DNA of 39,103 nt from contig JAQUQE010000014.1 in assembly GCA_028716225.1 (NCBI GenBank), forward strand, positions 1 through 39,103, given 5' to 3'. Source of the DNA: Dehalococcoidales bacterium (GTDB taxonomy: Bacteria; Chloroflexota; Dehalococcoidia; Dehalococcoidales; UBA5760). Of this stretch, positions 2,470 to 23,936 are shown in pieces (the stretch's first letter is position 1; every line of letters starts with the position of its first letter). The translations under genes were made by a program, and so were the position numbers. Under the pieces are notes generated by a model that worked only from the letters and a program-made list of their open reading frames with translations, was not told the DNA's origin and did no database searches.

Positions 2470-2786
2470 TGCTGGTTTATATTGCCGGCCCTTATTCATC
2501 CGATCCCGAACCAAACACAAAGAACGCCCTCGCGGTGGCCGAGAAGGTCCTTGCCGCCGGGATGATTCCATTCGTCCCCCATCTATCCCACTACTGGCAT
2601 TTACTCTATGAGCACGATTGGGAAACCTGGTTGAGAATCGATGCCGAGGTTTTGTTACGGTGTGATGCCGTCCTGAGAATCCCCGGCGAAAGTAAGGGGG
2701 CCGACTTGGAAATAGAGACAGCCAAAATTAAATGGATACCTGTCTTTTACGATATTGAAAGCCTTGAAAAATGGGCGGGAGGTTAG
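2469..2786 (+). CDS. Nucleoside 2-deoxyribosyltransferase-like protein (DUF4406-type)
   Basis: 105 residues, starting at the ATG that overlaps the previous stop. The N-terminus MLVYIAGPYSSDP is the hallmark of the nucleoside deoxyribosyltransferase/DUF4406 fold. It is followed by an alpha/beta pattern with FVPHLSHYWHLL and a segment (LRCDAVLRIPGESKGADLE) where family members place an acidic residue and bind nucleotide. Phages carry such genes in nucleotide-modification or salvage roles. Fold assignment is confident; the substrate is unknown. Confidence 0.8.
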   Translation: MLVYIAGPYSSDPEPNTKNALAVAEKVLAAGMIPFVPHLSHYWHLLYEHDWETWLRIDAEVLLRCDAVLRIPGESKGADLEIETAKIKWIPVFYDIESLEKWAGG

Positions 2787-2787
2787 T

Positions 2788-2934
2788 ATGGCCTGCGTAT
2801 GCTGTATGCCCGAATGTGACAATCCTTGCGCTTGCGAGGAAACAGTCTGCATATATCACTTAATGGAAGCAATAACGAACGAAAACAGACAGGAGGAACA
2901 GGCCGGCCCGCCGGCCGCTGATGCCGTTACCTAA
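2788..2934 (+). CDS. Small Cys-rich protein, 48 aa
   Basis: GGGAGG precedes the ATG and the frame ends 14 bases inside the next gene. The first 25 residues hold eight Cys (MACVCCMPECDNPCACEE), so this is a metal-binding or disulfide-rich peptide. The C-terminal half is acidic, then Ala/Pro-rich. There is no signal peptide, so a zinc-binding cytoplasmic role is more likely than disulfides. No family recognised. Confidence 0.6.
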   Translation: MACVCCMPECDNPCACEETVCIYHLMEAITNENRQEEQAGPPAADAVT

Positions 2935-3949
2935 GATTGGGACAAAAGAATGGGAAGAGGAAGCCCGATTTTACGAATCATCCACAAGGTCGCAACGAGA
3001 TAAACGAGCACGAGAATTGGGTTACGGCGATCGCAATAATTACGGGATGCAGATGAACAAGCGGGGCGTGCATCTGAAATCAGATAACCCGCCGATCACC
3101 ACGGATTACAAACTTCCCCCGGACAGTACATGGGAAGCCCATATTGAGACTATCCAGCGCCTATCGGAGCTCGTAGCATTCCATGAGCAGGTGCCCAACG
3201 AACTGACTATCAAGATTGACACCGATTTACCTATCGCGCTCACCTTTACCGCTGACTGGCAATTAGGCGAGTTTGGGGTAGATTACTTAGCATTTAAGGA
3301 CGATAATAACTGGTTACGAAATCAACCAGGCTTCAAGGTCCATGTCGGCGGTGACGGATACCAGAACTTAATCCAGGCATCAAAAGTCGGCAGTTCGCAG
3401 AACCAGGTCCCGGTCGCTGTGCAGAAGGGGCTTTACGTTCTTTCATTAAAAAGACTGGCCCCACGTATCCTGACCCTGGGCACAGGTAATCATAATTATT
3501 GGACTAAACTGGCCACGGGCGAGGATTGGGATGGGGAGCTGGCCAAGAAGCTCAAGCTACTCTATATCAAGCATTATGCGCTTGTCCATTTAAAAATCGG
3601 TAAACAAGAATACCCCTATTTAATTTTACACAAAGGTCGTTTTAATTCTGCTTTTAATCTTACCCATACCTGCAAGCAATACCAGCGCCTGCATTTCCCA
3701 CGAGCTCGGATAGTGGTGATCGAGCATCAACATACCTCTGCGGTAGAGCAATACCGCTATGACGGCAAGGAATGTTTAGCCATCCGGCCCGGAACGTACT
3801 CAGTGTATGACGACTTTGCACAGCAGAACGGATTTTTCGGCGCACATGTTGAAAACCCTACAGCCGTGCTTTTCCCCGACCGTGACAAACTTGTCGGTTT
3901 CAAGGATATGCGCGATGCCGCGATCTATTTGAAAGAAGTAAGAAAGTGA
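2921..3949 (+). CDS. Metallophosphoesterase-like protein with altered metal ligands
   Basis: 342 residues. The first 50 or so look like a helix-turn-helix or basic N-terminal region (RSQRDKRARELGYGDRNNYG). From residue about 105 the order of blocks matches calcineurin-like phosphoesterases: LTFTADWQLG (usual DxH), VGGDGYQN (usual GDxxD), GTGNHNYW (usual GNHD/E), ILHKGRF and VIEHQHTSAVE (usual GHxH). Several metal-binding positions differ from consensus, so it may be inactive or bind metal differently. Phage relatives of this fold include SbcD-like nucleases, but activity here is inferred. Confidence 0.6.
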   Translation: MPLPKIGTKEWEEEARFYESSTRSQRDKRARELGYGDRNNYGMQMNKRGVHLKSDNPPITTDYKLPPDSTWEAHIETIQRLSELVAFHEQVPNELTIKIDTDLPIALTFTADWQLGEFGVDYLAFKDDNNWLRNQPGFKVHVGGDGYQNLIQASKVGSSQNQVPVAVQKGLYVLSLKRLAPRILTLGTGNHNYWTKLATGEDWDGELAKKLKLLYIKHYALVHLKIGKQEYPYLILHKGRFNSAFNLTHTCKQYQRLHFPRARIVVIEHQHTSAVEQYRYDGKECLAIRPGTYSVYDDFAQQNGFFGAHVENPTAVLFPDRDKLVGFKDMRDAAIYLKEVRK

Positions 3950-4179
3950 AAACTGTCTTTATCAAATTTGATCGAGGTACATGGTATATCCAGGAAGCTG
4001 ATAACGAATACCATATTTACTATCGGCAGACGGGTGGGCAACCCCAGTTAATGATAATCTGCAAAGGCAAGGACGTATTCAGTACCCTGGCCGAATGCTG
4101 CTCTCTGATGTACGGCCAAATACACCCTGAAGTCAACTGGTCCGATAATCTAACAAAAGAAATTGAGGGATTGCTTTAA
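3946..4179 (+). CDS. Hypothetical protein, 77 aa
   Basis: Starts at GTG overlapping the TGA of the previous gene, so translation is probably coupled. The protein is small and beta-rich at the N-terminus (KTVFIKFDRGTWYIQ). Helical segments follow, with a Cys pair (LAECCSLMYG). It is the last gene before a strong terminator. No family recognised. Confidence 0.6.
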   Translation: MKTVFIKFDRGTWYIQEADNEYHIYYRQTGGQPQLMIICKGKDVFSTLAECCSLMYGQIHPEVNWSDNLTKEIEGLL

Positions 4180-4190
4180 TTCCTTCTGAT

Positions 4191-4228
4191 GCCCGGTGAG
4201 TTTCGACCACTCGCCGGGCGCTTTTTTT
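4191..4228 (+). terminator. Strong intrinsic terminator at convergent junction
   Basis: An 11-bp stem (4191-4201 with 4209-4219, one G-U pair) with loop TTCGACC is followed by seven T. It ends the rightward transcript from 2227-4179. The stop of the leftward zinc-ribbon gene overlaps the T-run. There is no T-run on the other strand, so termination should be efficient only rightward. Confidence 0.9.
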
Positions 4229-4439
4229 ATTTACAGAAGGGACACCGATATGGCGGGCCGTCCTCAGTCGAGGTGATCGATACCCGCCCATGCTCAGGGC
4301 AGTCAAAAACTTGGGTAGTGCGTTCGATTTTCAATTTAACGAATAACCCTTTGGCCGGCCTGACCTCGGCCTCCGTATTCCCACATACACAGGCTTTGGT
4401 GCCCGGAGGGACTTCACGGCCACAGGCAGTACATTTCAT
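4227..4439 (-). CDS. Zinc-ribbon protein, partner of the repressor
   Basis: 70 residues with four paired metal-ligand sites: CTACG, CVCG, CPEHG and CPFC. The pairs at each end would make two zinc ribbons. A basic, Val-rich stretch (GLFVKLKIERTTQVF) lies between. The start codon overlaps the stop of the XRE repressor gene, so the two are one leftward operon. A DNA- or RNA-binding accessory role for repression is plausible but unproved. Confidence 0.75.
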   Translation of the reverse strand: MKCTACGREVPPGTKACVCGNTEAEVRPAKGLFVKLKIERTTQVFDCPEHGRVSITSTEDGPPYRCPFCK

Positions 4440-4853: not shown

Positions 4854-4932
4854 ATCTGTAACATGTTAGAGAATACGGTTACTGGTGATAGGCGCGGAAG
4901 TGTATCTAATGGTATGTCGTGTCAGATAAGGT

Positions 4933-4947
4933 ACATTGTGCGACATT
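4933..4947. repeat. Operator-like direct repeat, copy 1
   Basis: The 15-mer ACATTGTGCGACATT recurs exactly at 5000-5014, 67 bases on. Both copies lie in the untranslated region between the rightward promoter and the first early gene, the expected place for repressor or early-regulator binding. Near-palindromic TAACATGGTTA follows copy 1. Confidence 0.7.
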
Positions 4948-4999
4948 CTAACATGGTTAAGATTCAGTTTCAGAAAAATGAGCATAATTTTAACAACCG

Positions 5000-5922: not shown

Positions 5923-6149
5923 CAAACGAGGAACGCGCACGTAAGGCAGGGCTTAAAGGCGGACCGGCCACGAAAGCCAAGTATGGATTTATTCGATGCA
6001 ACTGCGGCTTCATACACCGCACAAGTGACTTTTACGCCCAGAACGGCGCGAATGGCGGCAAAAAGACGGTAGAAACTTACGGGCGGGAACACATGGCCGA
6101 ACTCGGGCGCCGAGGCGGGCGCGGTAATAAAGGAGGGGAAAATGGGTGA
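5919..6149 (+). CDS. Small basic KGG-type protein, 76 aa
   Basis: Starts at the ATGA overlap with the antirepressor stop. It contains two Gly-rich basic segments (ARKAGLKGGPATKAK at the N-terminus and LGRRGGRGNKGG at the C-terminus) resembling the KGG motif of small stress-type proteins. Between them is a possible ligand pair (CNCGFIHR). Probably nucleic-acid binding; no closer family recognised. Confidence 0.65.
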   Translation: MTNEERARKAGLKGGPATKAKYGFIRCNCGFIHRTSDFYAQNGANGGKKTVETYGREHMAELGRRGGRGNKGGENG

Positions 6150-6318
6150 ATTAAAGTTAGTTCTATTGACAATTCAATCAATGGTTGTTGTATCCCAGAT
6201 TATCTGTCTGATTTTATACGCAAGAGACAACTCGCGTGATTTCTGCAACTTTTGGTCTATGTTCGCAATGATTCCGGCTTTAATACTCATGGTTATTATT
6301 TTGAGTTTACCGAAGTAA
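6142..6318 (+). CDS. Small two-helix membrane protein, 58 aa
   Basis: AGGAGGG precedes the ATG at 6142. Two hydrophobic segments (VLLTIQSMVVVSQIICLILY and FAMIPALILMVIILSL) are joined by a charged loop. It overlaps the end of the KGG-type gene by 8 bases. Function unknown. Small early membrane proteins of phages often act in superinfection exclusion, but nothing here proves that. Confidence 0.65.
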   Translation: MGELKLVLLTIQSMVVVSQIICLILYARDNSRDFCNFWSMFAMIPALILMVIILSLPK

Positions 6319-6329
6319 GGAGGGAAGCA

Positions 6330-6458
6330 ATGAACTGTTCAGTAGGGAATCATCCGCCTATTAGCGAATGCGCTAAGTGTAAAAAGCAATGTCCCTTTGA
6401 AGTCGAGGACTTCAGCAAATGGGACGTAAGGATGGGCGAAGATGCTATTCGAAGTTGA
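6330..6458 (+). CDS. Small zinc-binding protein, 42 aa
   Basis: GGAGGG precedes the ATG at 6330. The motif CAKCKKQC, with an earlier Cys (NCSVGNHPP), suggests a single zinc site. The remainder is acidic. It overlaps the next gene by 17 bases. No family recognised. Confidence 0.55.
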   Translation: MNCSVGNHPPISECAKCKKQCPFEVEDFSKWDVRMGEDAIRS

Positions 6459-6630
6459 GGTCGAGTTACGCGATAAAAAAACACTGGTAATCGAGGCCGA
6501 GGATCCGGACGATGCGGCCTTCAAAGCAACGGAAAGGTGCGAGGATGACGGCCTAACCGTCACCGGGACCTACGTACAAAGGATGGATGCCTATGATCTT
6601 AAAGAAATGAAAGTCGCACATTTAATTTAA
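6442..6630 (+). CDS. Hypothetical protein, 62 aa
   Basis: A compact acidic alpha/beta peptide: strand LFEVEVEL, strand KTLVIEAED, helix DDAAFKATERC, strand TVTGTYV. This is the pattern of small phage proteins that sense or bind through a ferredoxin-like half fold. Translation probably starts inside the end of the previous gene. No function can be assigned. Confidence 0.6.
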   Translation: MLFEVEVELRDKKTLVIEAEDPDDAAFKATERCEDDGLTVTGTYVQRMDAYDLKEMKVAHLI

Positions 6631-6642
6631 AGGAGGGAAAAC

Positions 6643-6861
6643 ATGAAATCATCTACCATCAATAACTGGTCGAATTTATTGGCATGGCCAGTCAGAGCAC
6701 TTATCGTATGGTGGATATGGAATACGTGGGTTGGGCCAGCCCTTAAAATCCCGCAGATCGATTACTTGACTGCGCTTATGGGATTGCTCATGGTTTCATG
6801 TTTTCGCAGTAGCTATGGTTATCTCATTGGGAAAATCGTTGACAAATTAGAAGGTGAATAA
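6643..6861 (+). CDS. Small membrane protein, 72 aa
   Basis: A strong AGGAGGG site precedes the ATG. Two membrane segments are likely: residues 12-30 (LAWPVRALIVWWIWNTWVG) and 40-60 (YLTALMGLLMVSCF). The tail is short and charged. It is the second small membrane protein of the early operon. Function unknown. Confidence 0.65.
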   Translation: MKSSTINNWSNLLAWPVRALIVWWIWNTWVGPALKIPQIDYLTALMGLLMVSCFRSSYGYLIGKIVDKLEGE

Positions 6862-6902
6862 GGAACGGCAGTTAATCCTATATTCTGCCAAAGGAGAGAA
6901 TA

Positions 6903-7583
6903 ATGGCAAAGGTATTGAGTGTAATCCCAAAGAAGTGGGAACGGGATGGTAAGTCAGGGGAATTCTGGCAACTGGCTGTCACAATGACAGATGGCACGAC
7001 GCGCGGCGTCGATTCGTACCGGGAACTGAAAACCGGCGACGAGATTCCCGACAGCGAAATCAAGCCCGGTAAGAAAGAAGGCACCTGGGTAATCTGGTCA
7101 GACAGAAAAGGTGGTGGGAAAGGGAATTACCAGCGCAATGACGACTCAATCCGGGCCCAGTGTGCTTTCAAAGGAATGGTGGACCTCATCATCGCCAACA
7201 AAATGAACGTCGCCGACCTGAATACACCGACCTGTATCAAGCTGGCAACCATCATCAAGAACACAGAGGAAGCAGTCAAAGGTCAGCAGGTCGGGCTAAA
7301 AAGTGCAGGTGATGCAGGTGGTGCAGCCCATGCCGGTCAGCTCGCAGGTCAACCGCCATCAGCGCACGGCGCAGATCCCAGCAAGGTCCCCCCGCCCCCG
7401 ATCATTCCGGAAAGTGTACCGCCACCTATCAAGTCAATGGGAGAGCTGAGGACTAAGATCAAAAAGACCTATTCGACCCTTCAAACCGTAGCCGCCCAGG
7501 ACTCCATACTCGGGAAAGAACCAATCACGGATTATGACGCGGCCTTTCAGAAGGTAGTCGATTACATGGGAAAGGAGATATAA
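6903..7583 (+). CDS. Putative ssDNA-binding / recombination-associated protein
   Basis: 226 residues. Residues 1-75 look like an OB-type beta barrel (VLSVIPKKWE, FWQLAVTMTDGTT, GTWVIW). Residues 80-125 contain a helical segment seen in phage replication-recombination proteins (SIRAQCAFKGMVDLIIANK). A Gly/Ala/Pro-rich linker (residues 140-180) leads to a helical C-terminus. The overall pattern resembles single-strand binding proteins with a flexible tail, although no acidic SSB tip is present. AAGGAGAG precedes the ATG. Assigned with caution. Confidence 0.55.
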   Translation: MAKVLSVIPKKWERDGKSGEFWQLAVTMTDGTTRGVDSYRELKTGDEIPDSEIKPGKKEGTWVIWSDRKGGGKGNYQRNDDSIRAQCAFKGMVDLIIANKMNVADLNTPTCIKLATIIKNTEEAVKGQQVGLKSAGDAGGAAHAGQLAGQPPSAHGADPSKVPPPPIIPESVPPPIKSMGELRTKIKKTYSTLQTVAAQDSILGKEPITDYDAAFQKVVDYMGKEI

Positions 7584-10568: not shown

Positions 10569-10870
10569 CAGAGAAAGAATTTGCCACAGCCGTTGAGGAT
10601 TTATTAAATCTCTACTCCTGGACCTGGTGCCATTACCGGCCAGCCAAAACAGACAAAGGCTGGCGCACACCGCTTTCAGGCCATAAAGGGATGCCGGATT
10701 ACATTGCTGTCAAAGGAAAACGGCTTCTGATGTTTGAATTGAAATCAGATACCGGCAAAGTCTCTCCTGAGCAGCAGGGATGGCTTGATGCCCTCGGAAA
10801 GACGAAGGTTGAGGTCTATTGCTGGCGGCCTGACCAGTTCAATGAAATAGTGGAGATATTGACCAGGTGA
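10565..10870 (+). CDS. VRR-NUC domain nuclease
   Basis: 101 residues, ATG overlapping the initiator stop. The core motifs are those of the VRR-NUC/PD-(D/E)XK fold: HKGMPDYIAV (catalytic Asp), LLMFELKSDTGK (E-x-K), then SPEQQGWLDAL and a final strand VEVYCWRP. Stand-alone phage VRR-NUC proteins cut branched DNA and often take the place of Holliday junction resolvases. Position after the initiator suits processing of replication intermediates. Confidence 0.85.
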   Translation: MTEKEFATAVEDLLNLYSWTWCHYRPAKTDKGWRTPLSGHKGMPDYIAVKGKRLLMFELKSDTGKVSPEQQGWLDALGKTKVEVYCWRPDQFNEIVEILTR

Positions 10871-11976
10871 GGCACATCGACCTCTTTTCAGGCATTGGCG
10901 GCTTCGCTTTAGCCTGCCAGTGGGTTGGGATTGAAACGATATGCTTTGTAGAAATAGACAAGTTTTGCCAGAAAGTTTTGAAAAGGCATTGGCCTGATGT
11001 GCCTATTGTCGAGGACGTAAATAATGTCGAAGAAATCAAACGAATTGTTGCCAACGCCATCGGCTTCGATGATGAGCGAGCAGGATTTTGTCCAAGCAAA
11101 AGGCAACAGCAAGACAAGACCAAAATACGAGGACGCGGGGTTTGCCCGATTGTTGCCAACGCCCAAAGGATCGCCATCGGGTCCAGATTACGCCAGACGC
11201 GGCCAGCCGCAGAGCGGAGCGGACGACCTTGTGACAATGATGGCCTCTTACTCACCGCCGGTTTCCCCTGCCAACCCTTCTCAAACGCAGGACGAAAACG
11301 AGGTTCGGCAGATGATCGTTACTTGTGGCCGCAGACTCTCACAGTCATTGAAGCTGTCAAGCCCAACTGGATCATTCTTGAAAACGTGCCTGGAATCCTC
11401 AATATGGTATTCCCCAATAGTGAAGTTGGAGTGGCAAGCCAAGCCACTTTATTCGGTGTTGAGAATGACGAAATCTGCGATTACAACACAATCTCCGGAC
11501 GAATCGAATCAGACCTCAGACAAGCAGGGTATGAAACAGTATGGCTTGTTATTCCAGCTTGCGGTGTCGGCGCACCCCACAGAAGAGATAGAGTGTGGAT
11601 TGTTGCCAACCGCGAGGGCTTGCGATTCAGAAGGGGGGCCGACAAAGGATGTGCAGAACCAGAATGGGCATTGGTTCAGGGAGAATCAAGAGGGCGTACG
11701 TTGGGGGATCAAACTCAAGGATGCGATAGCCATGCTACCGATACCCAAAGAGCGGGACTGGAAAGGGCAAACACAGAGGGGCAAATATCAACAGAACTCA
11801 ATAGCCGATTCGGTGATATTCCAGGATGGTCAGAAAACTGGTATGAAGTTGCAACCCACTTTTGTAGAGTGGATGCAAGGATACCCGATAGGGTGGACCG
11901 ACTTAAATCACTCGGAAACGCCATAGTACCGCAAGTAGCTTATGAACTAATTAAGGCAATTCAGGAGGTCGAATAG
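10867..11976 (+). CDS. dcm: DNA cytosine-5 methyltransferase (dual-coded gene)
   Basis: 369 residues from GTG overlapping the previous stop. Canonical motifs in order: I DLFSGIGGFALA (residues 4-15), IV GFPCQPFSNAG with the catalytic Cys, VI ENVPGI, VIII HRRDRVWIVA, X LGNAIVPQVAYELI. Unusually, about 70 residues of atypical sequence lie between motifs III and IV, and another long stretch lies between VIII and X where the target-recognition region is expected. These stretches repeat VANA/VAN and are exactly where the other reading frame (11024-11926) shows its own repeats. It probably protects phage DNA from restriction. Confidence 0.9.
   Translation: MRHIDLFSGIGGFALACQWVGIETICFVEIDKFCQKVLKRHWPDVPIVEDVNNVEEIKRIVANAIGFDDERAGFCPSKRQQQDKTKIRGRGVCPIVANAQRIAIGSRLRQTRPAAERSGRPCDNDGLLLTAGFPCQPFSNAGRKRGSADDRYLWPQTLTVIEAVKPNWIILENVPGILNMVFPNSEVGVASQATLFGVENDEICDYNTISGRIESDLRQAGYETVWLVIPACGVGAPHRRDRVWIVANREGLRFRRGADKGCAEPEWALVQGESRGRTLGDQTQGCDSHATDTQRAGLERANTEGQISTELNSRFGDIPGWSENWYEVATHFCRVDARIPDRVDRLKSLGNAIVPQVAYELIKAIQEVE
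11024..11926 (+). CDS. Overprinted ORF nested in the methyltransferase gene (LPTP-repeat, GWTDL family)
   Basis: A 300-codon frame lies wholly inside the methyltransferase gene in another frame. GAGG at 11011-11014 precedes the ATG by 9 bases. The protein has repeated LLPTPxxS-type units (LLPTPSAS, LLPTPKGSPSGPDYARRG, LLPTARACDSEGG, MLPIPKERDWKGQ), a central segment (SPTGSFLKTCLESSIWYSP, then LLFQLAVSAHPTEEIECG), and a C-terminal EWMQGYPIGWTDL. From memory these are the features of a widespread phage/bacterial family usually found near cytosine methyltransferases and often mislabelled as one. Function unknown. Confidence 0.6.
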   Translation: MSKKSNELLPTPSASMMSEQDFVQAKGNSKTRPKYEDAGFARLLPTPKGSPSGPDYARRGQPQSGADDLVTMMASYSPPVSPANPSQTQDENEVRQMIVTCGRRLSQSLKLSSPTGSFLKTCLESSIWYSPIVKLEWQAKPLYSVLRMTKSAITTQSPDESNQTSDKQGMKQYGLLFQLAVSAHPTEEIECGLLPTARACDSEGGPTKDVQNQNGHWFRENQEGVRWGIKLKDAIAMLPIPKERDWKGQTQRGKYQQNSIADSVIFQDGQKTGMKLQPTFVEWMQGYPIGWTDLNHSETP

Positions 11977-16268: not shown

Positions 16269-16611
16269 CCATCGAATAGTACCGGATGGAGTAAGAGTAT
16301 CAAATCCCTACAAGGAAAAGGGCAAGAAATACGACGAGGGATTTTCTGATGGTGTGGCTATAATGATTGGTTACTCTATCCCCTGTCCTTCTGAATGGAC
16401 AGCAGAGGAAGCGGTAGAGATATTGAAGATTTCGAAAGACGATTGGAACGAGATAGTGCATTGGTATGTGTGGAATAAAGCATATGTGAGAGACGGGAAA
16501 TTTATAGAGGAGGATTTTGCCCCAATTCTCTCCATGCTAATCCATACTGCTCCTCTGAAGGGGCTGAGTAAAGAGGAGATACGAAAACTACATGAAACCA
16601 CGATTGCTTGA
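16255..16611 (+). CDS. Hypothetical protein, 118 aa
   Basis: ACAGGAGG precedes the ATG. Helical and acidic (SEWTAEEAVEILKISKDDW), with aromatic-rich HWYVWNKAY. The last 20 codons overlap the start of the second methyltransferase. No family recognised. Confidence 0.6.
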   Translation: MTQYNHRIVPDGVRVSNPYKEKGKKYDEGFSDGVAIMIGYSIPCPSEWTAEEAVEILKISKDDWNEIVHWYVWNKAYVRDGKFIEEDFAPILSMLIHTAPLKGLSKEEIRKLHETTIA

Positions 16612-17269
16612 TTTATTCTGCGGAGCCGGTGGCGCAGCAATGGGATATTACCGTGCTGGCTTTGAAGTGGTCGGCGTAGATATTAAACCGCAACCACATT
16701 ATCCCTTTGAGTTTCACCAGGCGGATGCCCTTACCTATCCGTTAGATGGGTTTGATGCTTACTATGCCAGTCCGCCATGCCAAAGGTTTTCGCAGGCTGT
16801 AAAGAAAAAACATAGAGACAACTACCCAAACTACTTAGGAATTATTAGAGATATATTGGGAAATACAGGTAAACCGTATGTAATTGAAAATGTCCCACTT
16901 GCACCTCTAATAAACTATTTTACATTGTGTGGTTCATCATTTGGGTTGCCTGTTAGAAGACATCGCAGATTTGAGAGCAACATCTTCATTCCAGTAATGC
17001 GTTGTTCACATACTGAATATCCACGTAAATATAACTGTGCATGGAATAGAACAACTAAATTGCGTGTGCTATCTATTAGTGGTGGTTATCAGCATGGCAT
17101 TACGTTAGATGAATACAAGCAAGCTATGGGAATTGATTGGGAAGTAACTACTAAAGAACTATCAGAGGCAATACCCCCAGCTTATACAGAATATATCGGT
17201 AAACAACTTATGAAGGCATTGTCTCTGCCAGTAGAGGAGATTAAGGCTTTGAAGGAGTTGAATCATTGA
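16592..17269 (+). CDS. Short DNA cytosine-5 methyltransferase
   Basis: 225 residues, starting inside the previous gene. Motifs I LLDLFCGAGGAAMGY, IV ASPPCQRFSQAV (catalytic Cys), VI VIENVPLAPL, VIII RRHRRFESN and X AIPPAYTEYIGKQL are all present, but the target-recognition region is very short. This compact form is common in phages. With the larger enzyme at 10867 it would give two specificities, or one may modify host genes. Activity is likely from motif integrity. Confidence 0.9.
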   Translation: MKPRLLDLFCGAGGAAMGYYRAGFEVVGVDIKPQPHYPFEFHQADALTYPLDGFDAYYASPPCQRFSQAVKKKHRDNYPNYLGIIRDILGNTGKPYVIENVPLAPLINYFTLCGSSFGLPVRRHRRFESNIFIPVMRCSHTEYPRKYNCAWNRTTKLRVLSISGGYQHGITLDEYKQAMGIDWEVTTKELSEAIPPAYTEYIGKQLMKALSLPVEEIKALKELNH

Positions 17270-20422: not shown

Positions 20423-22330
20423 ATGAGCATATTTGATCGATTTAGAAAGAAAAGCATAGTGACCAAAGAGCCTGCCGTTCCGTATTTATTTAACTATGGT
20501 CAGGCTGTGCCTCCCGATAGGGATACGCGGGGTTATATAAATGCGTTCGGCGAGGTCGGCTGGTTGTTTGCTGTTATTTCCAAGATCGCCCAGGGCGTAG
20601 CCGATGCCGATTGGGGACTCTATACCTTTAATAAGGGCGAATATAAAGAGGTAGACAACCACCCTATTCTTGATGTTCTTGAATTCGTCAATCCCTTTCA
20701 GACGAGGCAGGAATTTATTGAGCTGCATGAGATTTACATGGGGCTGGTCGGTGAGTGCTTCTGGGTGATCAACAAAAACAAAGGCGGATTGCCCGGGGAA
20801 ATCTGGATTGCATCGCCGGACAGGATGTCCGTTGTCCCTTCCAAGAAAGATTTTATTGCCGGATATGTTTACCAGGTTGGGAGCGAGAAGATACCCCTCG
20901 ATAAAGAGATTGTCATTCATCATAAACTCCCAAACCCGGCAAACCCTTACCGGGGCCTCGGACCTGTGCAGGCCCTGGCTATTGACCTGGACAGCGAATA
21001 CTACGCCGGGAAATGGAACAGGAACTGGTTTTATAATTCAGCGAAGCCGGATGGGATACTGTCATTTGAGCAGTTATCTGACGAACAATATCAACGCCTT
21101 AAACAGCAATGGAACGAAAAATACAGAGGGACGGCCAACGCTCACAAAATGGCCCTCGTTGAAGGCGCCGCTAAATATCAGCAAATATCGATCTCAGCTA
21201 AAGACATGGACTTCCATGCACTGAGACTTCTTAACAGAGACAATATCCTGGGTGTGTTCGGCATGCCTTTGTCTGTGATGGGGATAACGGAAAACGTCAA
21301 CCGGGCAAATGCCGAGGCCGGGGATTACACATTCGCCCGCTGGATAGTCACTCCACGTTTAAAGAGGCTTCAAGGAAAATTAAACGAGCAGTTTATCCCG
21401 ATGTTCCCGAACTCACATAACCTTATCTTAATGCCCGATGATGTAGTGCCTGAGAGCATAGAGGAAAACCGGATGCTTGCTGAATCGGGTATCAAAACGG
21501 GCTATATGAAGATCAATGAGGCCCGCGAGCTCGTAGGGCTGGAATCATTGGGTGACGAAGGTGATGTGCTGGTTACTCCGAACCAAAATCCCTTCGGCAG
21601 TATGGGGCTATCTGTAAAAAAAAAGCGTGAACTATCCCTTGAATGGAAAGAGACCTACTGGAGAGGGTATGTAACCCGAGCTGAGACCTACGAAAAAAGA
21701 ATGATCGAAGCCTTAAAAGGAATGTTCGATCATCAGGAATCTCAAGCTATACAGCGACTTGAGAATGGGAGCAAAACTCTCATCGACCAATTCGAAGCAA
21801 AGATAGCCTATACTAAACTTGCCACTCCCATATTGACCGATCTTTTTAAACTCTCAATTGACAATGGCAGGGAACTTATAAAACCAAAACCCGTCCATAC
21901 CGAGGCGGCGCCCGAAGATGAGCCCTTAAATGATTCGGCCCGGAAGTGGCTTTTAACAAGGATAGGCTGGGCTGCTGAACAAGTCGGTGAGGAAACGGCG
22001 CGTAAACTGGCTGCCGCTTTAGCTGTAGGCTATGGCGAAGGTGAGAGCATCCCCGACTTAGCGAAGCGCATCCGTGAAGTATTCGTTGACTGCGACCGCA
22101 GGCGGTCAATCCTTATCGCCCGGACTGAAACTCTCAGCGCGTCCGCGCAGGGTGCCATCGAAGGGTATAAGGAAGCCGATCTTGAGAAGGCCGAGTTCAT
22201 GGCGAGCATGGACGAACGCTTATGTGAGGATTGCGAGGCTATGGATAATGAAACCTTTACCTTAGACGATTGCCAGGGCATTTTGCCGCTGCATCCCTCG
22301 TGTAGATGTTGTTGGCTACCTGTAGTATGA
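20423..22330 (+). CDS. Portal protein fused to MuF-like head morphogenesis domain
   Basis: 635 residues. Residues 1-390 are an HK97-type portal (FAVISKIAQGVADADWGLY near the N-terminus, GLGPVQALAIDLDSE, NWFYNSAKPDGIL, then RANAEAGDYTFARW). Residues about 470-635 are a MuF/SPP1 gp7-like minor head domain (AEQVGEETARKLAAALA, IARTETLSASAQGAIEG, CEDCEAMDNETF, LHPSCRCCWLPVV). These are usually two genes. The last codons have been replaced by a homing endonuclease insertion: an older copy of the same C-terminus lies at 22781-22807. The dodecameric portal anchors the terminase and tail. Confidence 0.93.
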   Translation: MSIFDRFRKKSIVTKEPAVPYLFNYGQAVPPDRDTRGYINAFGEVGWLFAVISKIAQGVADADWGLYTFNKGEYKEVDNHPILDVLEFVNPFQTRQEFIELHEIYMGLVGECFWVINKNKGGLPGEIWIASPDRMSVVPSKKDFIAGYVYQVGSEKIPLDKEIVIHHKLPNPANPYRGLGPVQALAIDLDSEYYAGKWNRNWFYNSAKPDGILSFEQLSDEQYQRLKQQWNEKYRGTANAHKMALVEGAAKYQQISISAKDMDFHALRLLNRDNILGVFGMPLSVMGITENVNRANAEAGDYTFARWIVTPRLKRLQGKLNEQFIPMFPNSHNLILMPDDVVPESIEENRMLAESGIKTGYMKINEARELVGLESLGDEGDVLVTPNQNPFGSMGLSVKKKRELSLEWKETYWRGYVTRAETYEKRMIEALKGMFDHQESQAIQRLENGSKTLIDQFEAKIAYTKLATPILTDLFKLSIDNGRELIKPKPVHTEAAPEDEPLNDSARKWLLTRIGWAAEQVGEETARKLAAALAVGYGEGESIPDLAKRIREVFVDCDRRRSILIARTETLSASAQGAIEGYKEADLEKAEFMASMDERLCEDCEAMDNETFTLDDCQGILPLHPSCRCCWLPVV

Positions 22331-22779
22331 ATAAATTAGATTTAGCTTACATCGGCGGGTTATTTGATGGCGAGGGAAATATCCAGATTGTCAAGCGTAG
22401 CCCGTTATCAAACAGAAGGGACACATACCACTTAGTTGTCCGTGTGTGTTTGGTGGAAGATTATATCCCCAAGTGGTTAGCCTTCGCTTTTGGTGGCAGT
22501 GTTAATAAAAGGTTAAGGGAACAGGTTAACCCACATCATCGTGACGTATATACATGGTATTGCAGCCAGCAAATAGCTGCTAATTTCTTACGGGCAGTAT
22601 TGCCATACCTAAAATTGAAAAAGGCACAGGCTGAGATAGCGCTCAAGTTTCAGGAAAGGAAAAGATGTGGTCGGCCTCGTAAAGTAAACGGAACTTTTAC
22701 CCCTAAAACGGAAGGGGAATTAGCCGTTGAGGAAGCCGAGTATATTTTAATGAAACAACTGAAACACCAGAAATATTAA
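22327..22779 (+). CDS. LAGLIDADG homing endonuclease, intronless, inserted in the portal gene
   Basis: 150 residues. The start overlaps the portal TGA as ATGA; an in-frame ATG at 22306 lies inside the portal. One LAGLIDADG motif is visible near the N-terminus (LAYIGGLFDGEGNI), with the acidic DGEG catalytic segment, so it should act as a dimer. Basic DNA-contact segments follow (KRSPLSNRRD, then ERKRCGRPRKV). It is not inside an intron: there is no space for one on either side. It probably cuts the end of uninvaded portal genes. Confidence 0.85.
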   Translation: MNKLDLAYIGGLFDGEGNIQIVKRSPLSNRRDTYHLVVRVCLVEDYIPKWLAFAFGGSVNKRLREQVNPHHRDVYTWYCSQQIAANFLRAVLPYLKLKKAQAEIALKFQERKRCGRPRKVNGTFTPKTEGELAVEEAEYILMKQLKHQKY

Positions 22780-22780
22780 C

Positions 22781-22807
22781 GAGTGCTGCTGGCTGCCCGT
22801 TGTATAG
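22781..22807 (+). pseudogene. Displaced original 3' end of the portal gene
   Basis: Read in the right frame this encodes E-CCWLPVV-stop. The active portal ends R-CCWLPVV-stop at 22304-22330. The seven shared codons CCWLPVV are identical in protein but five of the seven differ by silent bases. The TAG stop joins the ribosome site of the protease gene, the arrangement expected of the uninterrupted operon. It begins one base after the endonuclease stop. Confidence 0.85.
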
Positions 22808-22817
22808 GAGGCATTTT

Positions 22818-23936
22818 ATGACTGAAACTATATTTAAAACATTCCGCCCGGAAGTGAAGGCCGTCAATTCAGAGGACGGCACAATCGATATGCTAATCCC
22901 TATGTCTACAGCTTCGACTGACAGAGACGGGGAGAGTATCGACCCTCTTGGCTGGCGCAAGTCACTCCCGGCCTTCCGCAAGCGCCCGGTCCTGCTGTCC
23001 TCTCATAATTACGGCGATCTCAGGAAACAGATCGGTGAGTTTACGAAACTCAAAGTATCCGAGGACGGCCTTTTCGCGAGCCCGCGCTACTACATAAACG
23101 AGGGAAACGAGGAAGCGGATTGGGCTTTTAAACTGGCCTCGAAAGGCATGGCCGCCTATTCTGTGGGCTTTATCCCGAAAGCCTGGACGGATGGTGACGG
23201 CGAAAAGGAACCACGCCGGACTTACACTGAGCAGGAGCTTTTGGAAATCAGTCATGTGGTCGTGCCATCTAATCGTGACGCCATTCAAGGGTTAAGGGGA
23301 AAGTCAGTGGACCCTGTGCTTAACTCGGTGATTGACGATATCGTGAGTGCCGAGATTATCGACCTGACCACTAAGCCCGAGGACACCGGCGAGACAATCC
23401 GAATCCCGGTTGATGACGGCAATCACGAAGGCCACGAAAGAAAAACAATACCAATCTCCAAGAAAGAAGGAATCCAAGCTCTCTATTGTGTGGACGATAA
23501 GAAAATCCTTACTTATTTATTCGATAAGGCTGCCGGCTGGACAATGGAAAAAGCCAAAGCTTGGGTAAAAGAGCATGAGAAGTCGGTCAATCTAATCTGT
23601 ACGATGTCAGGCGAAGTGATTGGAGGCGTGGTTTTTGAGCCGCCTGTTACTTTACCAGTAGAGGATATCCCGGCGCCGGCCAAGCACAGTCAAAAGGAAA
23701 TCATGGACGAGATCGACTTCGTTAAGTCACTCATAGCCGAGTACGGGATGAATAAGGAAACCAACGCCCAGGCATGGGATCTGGTCAGGGAAATAATGCG
23801 CGAGAACGGGAGCGACATACCCGCTGACATAAAATTCGGCGTTACCCAGATTTCGCTGGAACCGCCGCCCACTAAAACCATCGATGATCGAATCAATATA
23901 ATCATCGAGCAAACAGTCTCACACTTCATAAAATAA
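22818..23936 (+). CDS. HK97-type prohead protease with long C-terminal extension
   Basis: 372 residues from ATG 22818; TAGGAGG precedes it, and longer reading of the frame runs through the portal remnant. Residues 1-160 are the S78 protease: STDRDGESIDPLGW, LSSHNYGD (catalytic His), AAYSVGFIP (catalytic Ser) and ISHVVVPSNRDA. The remaining 200 residues are not protease. They include a W/K segment (GWTMEKAKAWVKEHEK) and an acidic, helical end that may act as scaffold. It would trim the capsid delta domain. Confidence 0.9.
   Translation: MTETIFKTFRPEVKAVNSEDGTIDMLIPMSTASTDRDGESIDPLGWRKSLPAFRKRPVLLSSHNYGDLRKQIGEFTKLKVSEDGLFASPRYYINEGNEEADWAFKLASKGMAAYSVGFIPKAWTDGDGEKEPRRTYTEQELLEISHVVVPSNRDAIQGLRGKSVDPVLNSVIDDIVSAEIIDLTTKPEDTGETIRIPVDDGNHEGHERKTIPISKKEGIQALYCVDDKKILTYLFDKAAGWTMEKAKAWVKEHEKSVNLICTMSGEVIGGVVFEPPVTLPVEDIPAPAKHSQKEIMDEIDFVKSLIAEYGMNKETNAQAWDLVREIMRENGSDIPADIKFGVTQISLEPPPTKTIDDRINIIIEQTVSHFIK

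Follow-up and report, generated by a model that had tools for sequence, protein, structure and literature searches.

An intronless I-CreI-type endonuclease at a phage portal gene likely carries a recoded copy of the gene's 3' end

Introduction

Why should the last codons of a phage portal gene occur twice, spelled differently, on the two sides of an endonuclease gene? The question is raised by the window, the whole 39,103-nucleotide stretch of Dehalococcoidales contig JAQUQE010000014.1 analysed here. An earlier, sequence-only reading of the locus had proposed that the endonuclease entered the final portal codons, bringing a synonymous replacement end and leaving the original one behind as a remnant. 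This proposal is supported by the comparisons described below. The likely explanation, at a probability of about 0.8, is a homing endonuclease that has no intron and that moves as a unit with the 3' end of its target gene in synonymously recoded form; neither cleavage nor homing has been demonstrated.

Results

Anatomy of the portal-protease junction

All features of the junction lie on the forward strand. The portal gene, target of the insertion, extends from 20423 to 22330 and its translation comprises a portal domain (Pfam Phage_portal, 3.7e-65) and a Mu-F-like C-terminal domain (Phage_Mu_F, 5.7e-14). The new, recoded portal end, RCCWLPVV-TGA, occupies 22304-22330, its left border being uncertain by a few codons; the last codons read TGT TGT TGG CTA CCT GTA GTA (22307-22327), followed by the TGA stop (22328-22330). 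This stop overlaps the start of the endonuclease gene as ATGA (22327-22330). The endonuclease ORF (22327-22779) opens with ATG, closes with TAA and encodes 150 amino acids. Beyond it lies the remnant of the native portal end (22781-22807), in which TGC TGC TGG CTG CCC GTT GTA TAG (22784-22807) is immediately preceded by CGAG. The AG of this TAG belongs to the Shine-Dalgarno sequence AGGAGG (22806-22811) of the next gene downstream, which starts with ATG at 22818, ends at 23936 and encodes a prohead serine protease (Pfam Peptidase_S78, 1.6e-5).

The two CCWLPVV copies differ in five of seven codons, always at the third position and always synonymously, and their stop codons differ as well (TGA versus TAG). 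They stand in the same frame, 477 bases apart, and a repeat finder pairs 22304-22327 with 22781-22804 at 67%. The stop-anchored match scores 48, a value never reached in 60 re-pairings of 172 endonuclease loci, and the duplicate is thus not a chance resemblance. The sequence-only reading had reported the duplication, the overlap of stop and start, the link to the protease ribosome site and the five silent codon differences, all of which held. Its placement of the second copy one base after the endonuclease stop is correct for the GAG codon at 22781, where one base is skipped, whereas the matching codons begin four bases past that stop.

The remnant lies in the portal frame, yet many stops interrupt that frame between the portal end and the remnant, and a scan of the remnant's own open stretch found no ATG, GTG or TTG start. 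In the absence of a standard start codon we infer that it is an unused relic of the portal end; no RNA data are available. The third positions of the new end are G or C in only one of eight codons, against 0.617 in the preceding 60 portal codons (P 0.006, post hoc), a composition closer to that of the AT-richer endonuclease gene (0.42) than to those portal codons.

The endonuclease

The protein, P0002, contains one LAGLIDADG motif (LAYIGGLFDGEGN) in its 150 residues. By itself it is marginal in Pfam (0.13), but LAGLIDADG_1 is matched by six of seven family members, and over residues 3-108 a profile of these seven matches I-CreI (1e-6) and I-MsoI. With an AlphaFold model (mean pLDDT 76.6) as query, the top Foldseek matches were I-CreI, with probability 1.00. 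Motif and fold therefore identify P0002 as an I-CreI-type LAGLIDADG homing endonuclease by profile and structure, while cleavage has not been demonstrated. By analogy with I-CreI, it would be expected to act as a homodimer. Enzymes of the I-CreI type recognise near-palindromic targets of about 22 bp; inspection of the capsid and portal insertion points revealed no convincing palindromic target. I-CreI and I-MsoI, single-motif LAGLIDADG endonucleases that resemble P0002 in sequence profile and fold, are encoded in group I introns, in contrast to the P0002 gene, which has no intron.

The native portal end

A profile scan identified portal relatives in L148 (75%), L150-L152 (about 60%) and L012 (43%), the last being a second portal-bearing contig of the same genome as the window. 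None of these five carries the endonuclease. Their portal genes end in ...PVV or ...PVI followed by TAG, which runs straight into GAGG and the ATG of the protease gene. The downstream copy of the window has this same TAG-GAGG junction, while the upstream copy ends in TGA. Since the junction of the uninvaded relatives is shared with the downstream copy, the downstream copy is the native end and the upstream copy is the new one. If so, uninvaded DNA should be nearer to the downstream copy, as the sequence-only reading had predicted. This holds for the stop codon and the ribosome-site junction. The 21 coding bases leave the matter undecided: compared with the portal end of L148, the remnant has 5 mismatches in 21 bases and the new end has 4. 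Where the window and its portal relatives encode the same residue, the codons are different in about half of the cases, and with silent sites saturated between these phages, the coding bases do not tell which copy is native. For the same reason, a divergence break sought at the insertion by comparing the window with its portal relatives was uninformative, and the comparison was made in the capsid group. The data contain no uninvaded relative very close to the window, so the portal itself gives no means of mapping a donor tract.

The same junction is occupied differently in other relatives. In L149, a 75% relative, a reverse-strand gene for a DUF559, Vsr-like nuclease is inserted at the same portal end (3579-4368), and the portal-protease junction thus attracts endonucleases of different families. 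A portal-end relic was considered for this insertion as well and rejected, the resemblance being only vague and unaccompanied by a jump in silent divergence. In L154, a relic between portal and protease (2051-2450) resembles the C-terminus of the present endonuclease family (AIEEAHRILLSGMK) and is apparently a decayed insertion at the same junction. In L147, another close relative, a tRNA-Thr gene (4902-4978) directly follows the portal stop codon.

Captured ends in the capsid group

A degenerate pattern for the end of a major capsid gene retrieved 17 contigs, of which 14 are uninvaded and three carry an endonuclease at that point: L221 (the same contig as L054), L222 (the same as L065) and L230. 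Silent differences in the last 21 codons were counted against eight distinct uninvaded genes and amounted to 7-11 of 14-15 comparable codons in L054, 6-7 of 14-17 in L230 and 4-5 of 14-15 in L222, whereas the uninvaded genes show only 1-4 among themselves in the same stretch. The 21 codons just upstream display no such excess (L054 3/16 and L222 1/15, against L220; L230 0/18 to 3/16, against five genes). The contrast between captured and upstream stretches is significant for L054 (11/15 against 3/16, P 0.003) and for L230 (6/17 against 0/18, P 0.008; P 0.002 to 0.05 depending on the relative), but not for L222 taken alone (P 0.08). In addition, the three new capsid ends share ACG TAY GAT where every uninvaded gene has ACC TAC GAC. 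The capsid cases thus contain a discrete stretch of excess silent divergence, which is the captured end.

The remnant in L054 is closer to the uninvaded genes (5-7 of 15-16 silent differences) than is its new end (7-11 of 14-15). Related endonucleases at capsid and terL genes accordingly show this nearness of uninvaded DNA to the downstream copy more completely than the portal does. L222 possesses the endonuclease and the new capsid end but retains no remnant, which means that the relic can be lost.

Recurrence across the endonuclease family

Across 172 distinct family loci, we looked for pairs of stop-anchored gene ends that flank the endonuclease and abut it on either side. Five loci score 27 or more, against 0.017 expected from re-pairing of loci: the capsid locus L054 (100, over 21 residues), the window portal (48), L057 (29), L047 (27) and L238 (27). 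The remnant of L238 overlaps the endonuclease tail in another frame; at L047, relatives of the upstream gene that lack the endonuclease end in similar residues. A sixth case is the terL gene of L155, where the new end, AGA TGG ATA TGA, overlaps the endonuclease start and the remnant reads AGG TGG ATA TAA ATG; uninvaded terL genes in L157 and L158 share AGG TGG and TAA ATG with this remnant and have ATT or GTA in between. The window arrangement recurs in other phages and is therefore not an isolated oddity. About 165 of the 172 family loci have no detectable duplicate end. The ATGA overlap is the commonest single arrangement, being found at 18 of the 100 loci having an ORF that ends at the endonuclease start. 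Three further loci, L274, L273 and L060, scored highly in a looser screen and were rejected, their repeats lying away from the endonuclease borders.

A mirror form is observed in L251. There, the endonuclease stands after TTG GAG AAC ATT GTT GCA ACC, while the next gene opens ATG GAG AAT ATA GTG GCG ACC, its start overlapping the endonuclease stop as TAATG. L104 provides a shorter 5' case (MRLPL). L251 and L104 look like the same strategy applied to the 5' ends of genes, although only few codons support this. In a start-anchored screen for 5' copies, L251 stands out without being significant alone, the null being inflated by tandem endonucleases. L251 itself contains two LAGLIDADG-like genes in tandem (2562-4211), and the recoded duplicate of the first codons of the next gene precedes the second of them. 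In L156, a family member (46% identical) splits a prohead protease gene into a catalytic and a C-terminal part (5956-7400), again with an ATGA overlap.

Related capsid genes occur with and without the endonuclease, and relatives of the family stand at several different genes; movement is therefore implied, although this is an inference unsupported by a homing assay. Among phage records, ten regions were fetched and seven were inspected base by base for duplicate ends (Skinny, Pumpernickel, Vibrio 496E54-1, Caulobacter RBC11, Cyanophage PP, Emma1919 and Anedea). None was seen, and there is thus no cultured example. A DNA search of the window region against 50,697 phage records returned no match.

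Discussion

Proposed mechanism

In the reading that we prefer, the mobile unit would consist of a new portal end with its stop codon and an endonuclease gene starting inside that stop, placed a few codons before the original portal stop. The enzyme would cut an uninvaded portal end near the insertion point, and repair from an invaded genome would copy in the recoded end together with the endonuclease. The outcome is seen in the window: the native end is displaced downstream and, with identical C-terminal residues encoded by the new end, no part of the portal protein is lost. Of the displaced native end, only the stop codon would still serve, as part of the protease ribosome site. The anatomy, the identity of the native copy and the repetition at other genes are shown, whereas the cutting and repair steps are inferred. 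Counting against this reading are the large majority of family loci without a detectable duplicate end, the lack of an evident palindrome at the insertion points and the absence of a duplicate from the seven phage records inspected.

Recoding may in addition shield the unit from its own enzyme and lower recombination between the two copies. Immunity of this kind is plausible, but removal of the cut site, which the sequence-only reading had also suggested, is inferred and has not been shown. Because the differences are almost exclusively silent, selection on the protein probably acted on both copies during their divergence; this is consistent with the recent arrival of a new end that another lineage had either supplied or recoded. 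Transfer from a diverged donor and selection for recoding cannot be told apart with these data.

A bolder reading, about as likely as not, is that small phage I-CreI-like endonucleases form a class of natural home-and-rescue elements, each with a recoded patch of the essential gene that it targets. The patch would be 3' in most cases, as at portal, capsid, terL and other genes, and 5' in the mirror form (L251, perhaps L104), the insertion would lie in coding sequence without splicing, and the recoding would be kept by selection as a putative block to self-cleavage.

Alternative explanations

The alternative that survives best, though unlikely, is a simple duplication of the target, like that at transposon ends, followed by silent drift in place, with no foreign end and no selection for recoding. 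It is favoured by a family member in the same genome (G000:C105), which is flanked by perfect 30-bp direct repeats that are unique to this site in that genome. This locus (2809-3456; L035, L380, L381) looks like a young insertion with target duplication, and its repeats suggest landing by duplication as a possible first step of the preferred mechanism too. Against the alternative, drift of an untranslated relic should gather replacement changes, whereas the copies differ almost only silently: silent and replacement codon differences number 5 and 0 in the window (P 0.001), 9 and 2 in L054 (P 4e-5) and 4 and 0 in L238 (P 0.002). Moreover, in the capsid group it is the captured stretch that has diverged silently from all uninvaded genes, not its neighbour within the same gene, and the ACG TAY GAT shared by the three new capsid ends is unlike every uninvaded gene.

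A mobile intron, or another spliced or bypassed element whose removal would join the two copies, is very unlikely. The two copies do share a frame at a spacing of 477 bases, and introns are known from the capsid and tail genes of phages (PMC3706429). However, the portal is already complete without splicing, and the endonuclease ORF occupies nearly the whole interval. A search of 21800-23300 against Rfam, up to E = 5, found no match and thus no group I or group II catalytic RNA core around the endonuclease ORF, in agreement with the sequence-only reading, which had seen no room for an intron.

An assembly artefact merging two strains is conceivable, given that the assembly is in 156 contigs, the window being one of them, and that its contamination is estimated at 3.09%. 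It is also very unlikely: unrelated contigs show this architecture too, at different genes and with different endonucleases, and the window junctions are both exact and functional (ATGA overlap, intact ribosome site).

Relation to known systems

The closest parallel lies in fungal mitochondria, where mobile endonuclease ORFs have replaced the C-termini of genes: atp6 in Allomyces macrogynus; atp6, atp9, cox2 and nad3 in Glomus; atp9 in Rhizopus; and cox2 in Mortierella (PMC3630166). As in the window, the endonuclease ORF follows a complete foreign gene end and the native end is duplicated downstream; as in the phage cases, the protein is kept while the DNA diverges, and the native copy is nearer to uninvaded relatives. 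The sequence-only reading had drawn a parallel with chytrid mitochondrial atp6; the architecture described in fungal mitochondria is the same. Of these mitochondrial-type features, a complete gene end before the endonuclease with a second copy after it is met in the window and five screened loci (the window included), and a downstream copy nearer to uninvaded relatives is met for capsid and terL, and at the portal for the junction only. The phage cases differ in involving virion genes (portal, capsid) and terL, in captured ends of only some 7-21 codons, in an endonuclease start that overlaps the new stop codon and in the mirrored 5' form (L251).

Free-standing phage endonucleases and intronless homing, exemplified by the T4 seg and mob genes, have been reviewed (PMC2988022). 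Like the window element, these genes lack an intron or intein and lie beside essential genes, commonly with upstream overlap and coupling. Phage enzymes of this kind cut far from their own genes and sometimes split genes (PMC2988022, PMC10448857). The reviewed seg and mob cases cut hundreds to thousands of bases away (PMC2988022), in contrast to the window, where the endonuclease has inserted within the coding end and a recoded copy makes the gene whole again. T4 mobA with the gene 60 bypass, and mobE in nrdA of Aeh1, share with the window an insertion into an essential phage gene together with an accompanying fix; the 50-nt bypassed insert of gene 60 may protect against cleavage (PMC5009743). 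There the gene is split or relies on translational bypass, whereas in the window the frame is restored by a synonymous copy. In mycobacteriophage Omega, an HNH insertion gave lysin A a new 3' end (PMC3706429), and in this respect the case is similar to the window. Unlike the window, 35 bp of the target were lost, the end was changed and no duplicate recoded end was reported (PMC3706429).

Synthetic home-and-rescue gene drives combine a cutter in an essential gene with a recoded target gene. The window likewise presents an endonuclease in an essential gene and a recoded end that restores it, but the element is natural and phage-borne, and neither cleavage nor resistance of the recoded copy has been demonstrated. 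The sequence-only reading had named no phage portal case. No phage precedent for recoded gene ends was found in the open-access literature searched; most subscription journals were outside its scope, and a precedent may exist.

Significance and other features of the window

The arrangement would offer a selfish endonuclease a splicing-free way of living inside an essential phage gene, and it adds phage virion genes to the range of a mechanism described in fungal mitochondria. It may also serve as a natural parallel to recoded-rescue gene drives, with three steps that are each open to testing in vitro: cutting, resistance of the recoded copy, and loss of the relic. For annotation it carries a warning: the last codons of an invaded gene belong to the mobile element, and a short relic of the gene end sits between genes.

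Elsewhere in the window, two ORFs encode C5 cytosine methylases (10867-11976 and 16592-17269), the second of which matches only the first third of the Pfam profile.
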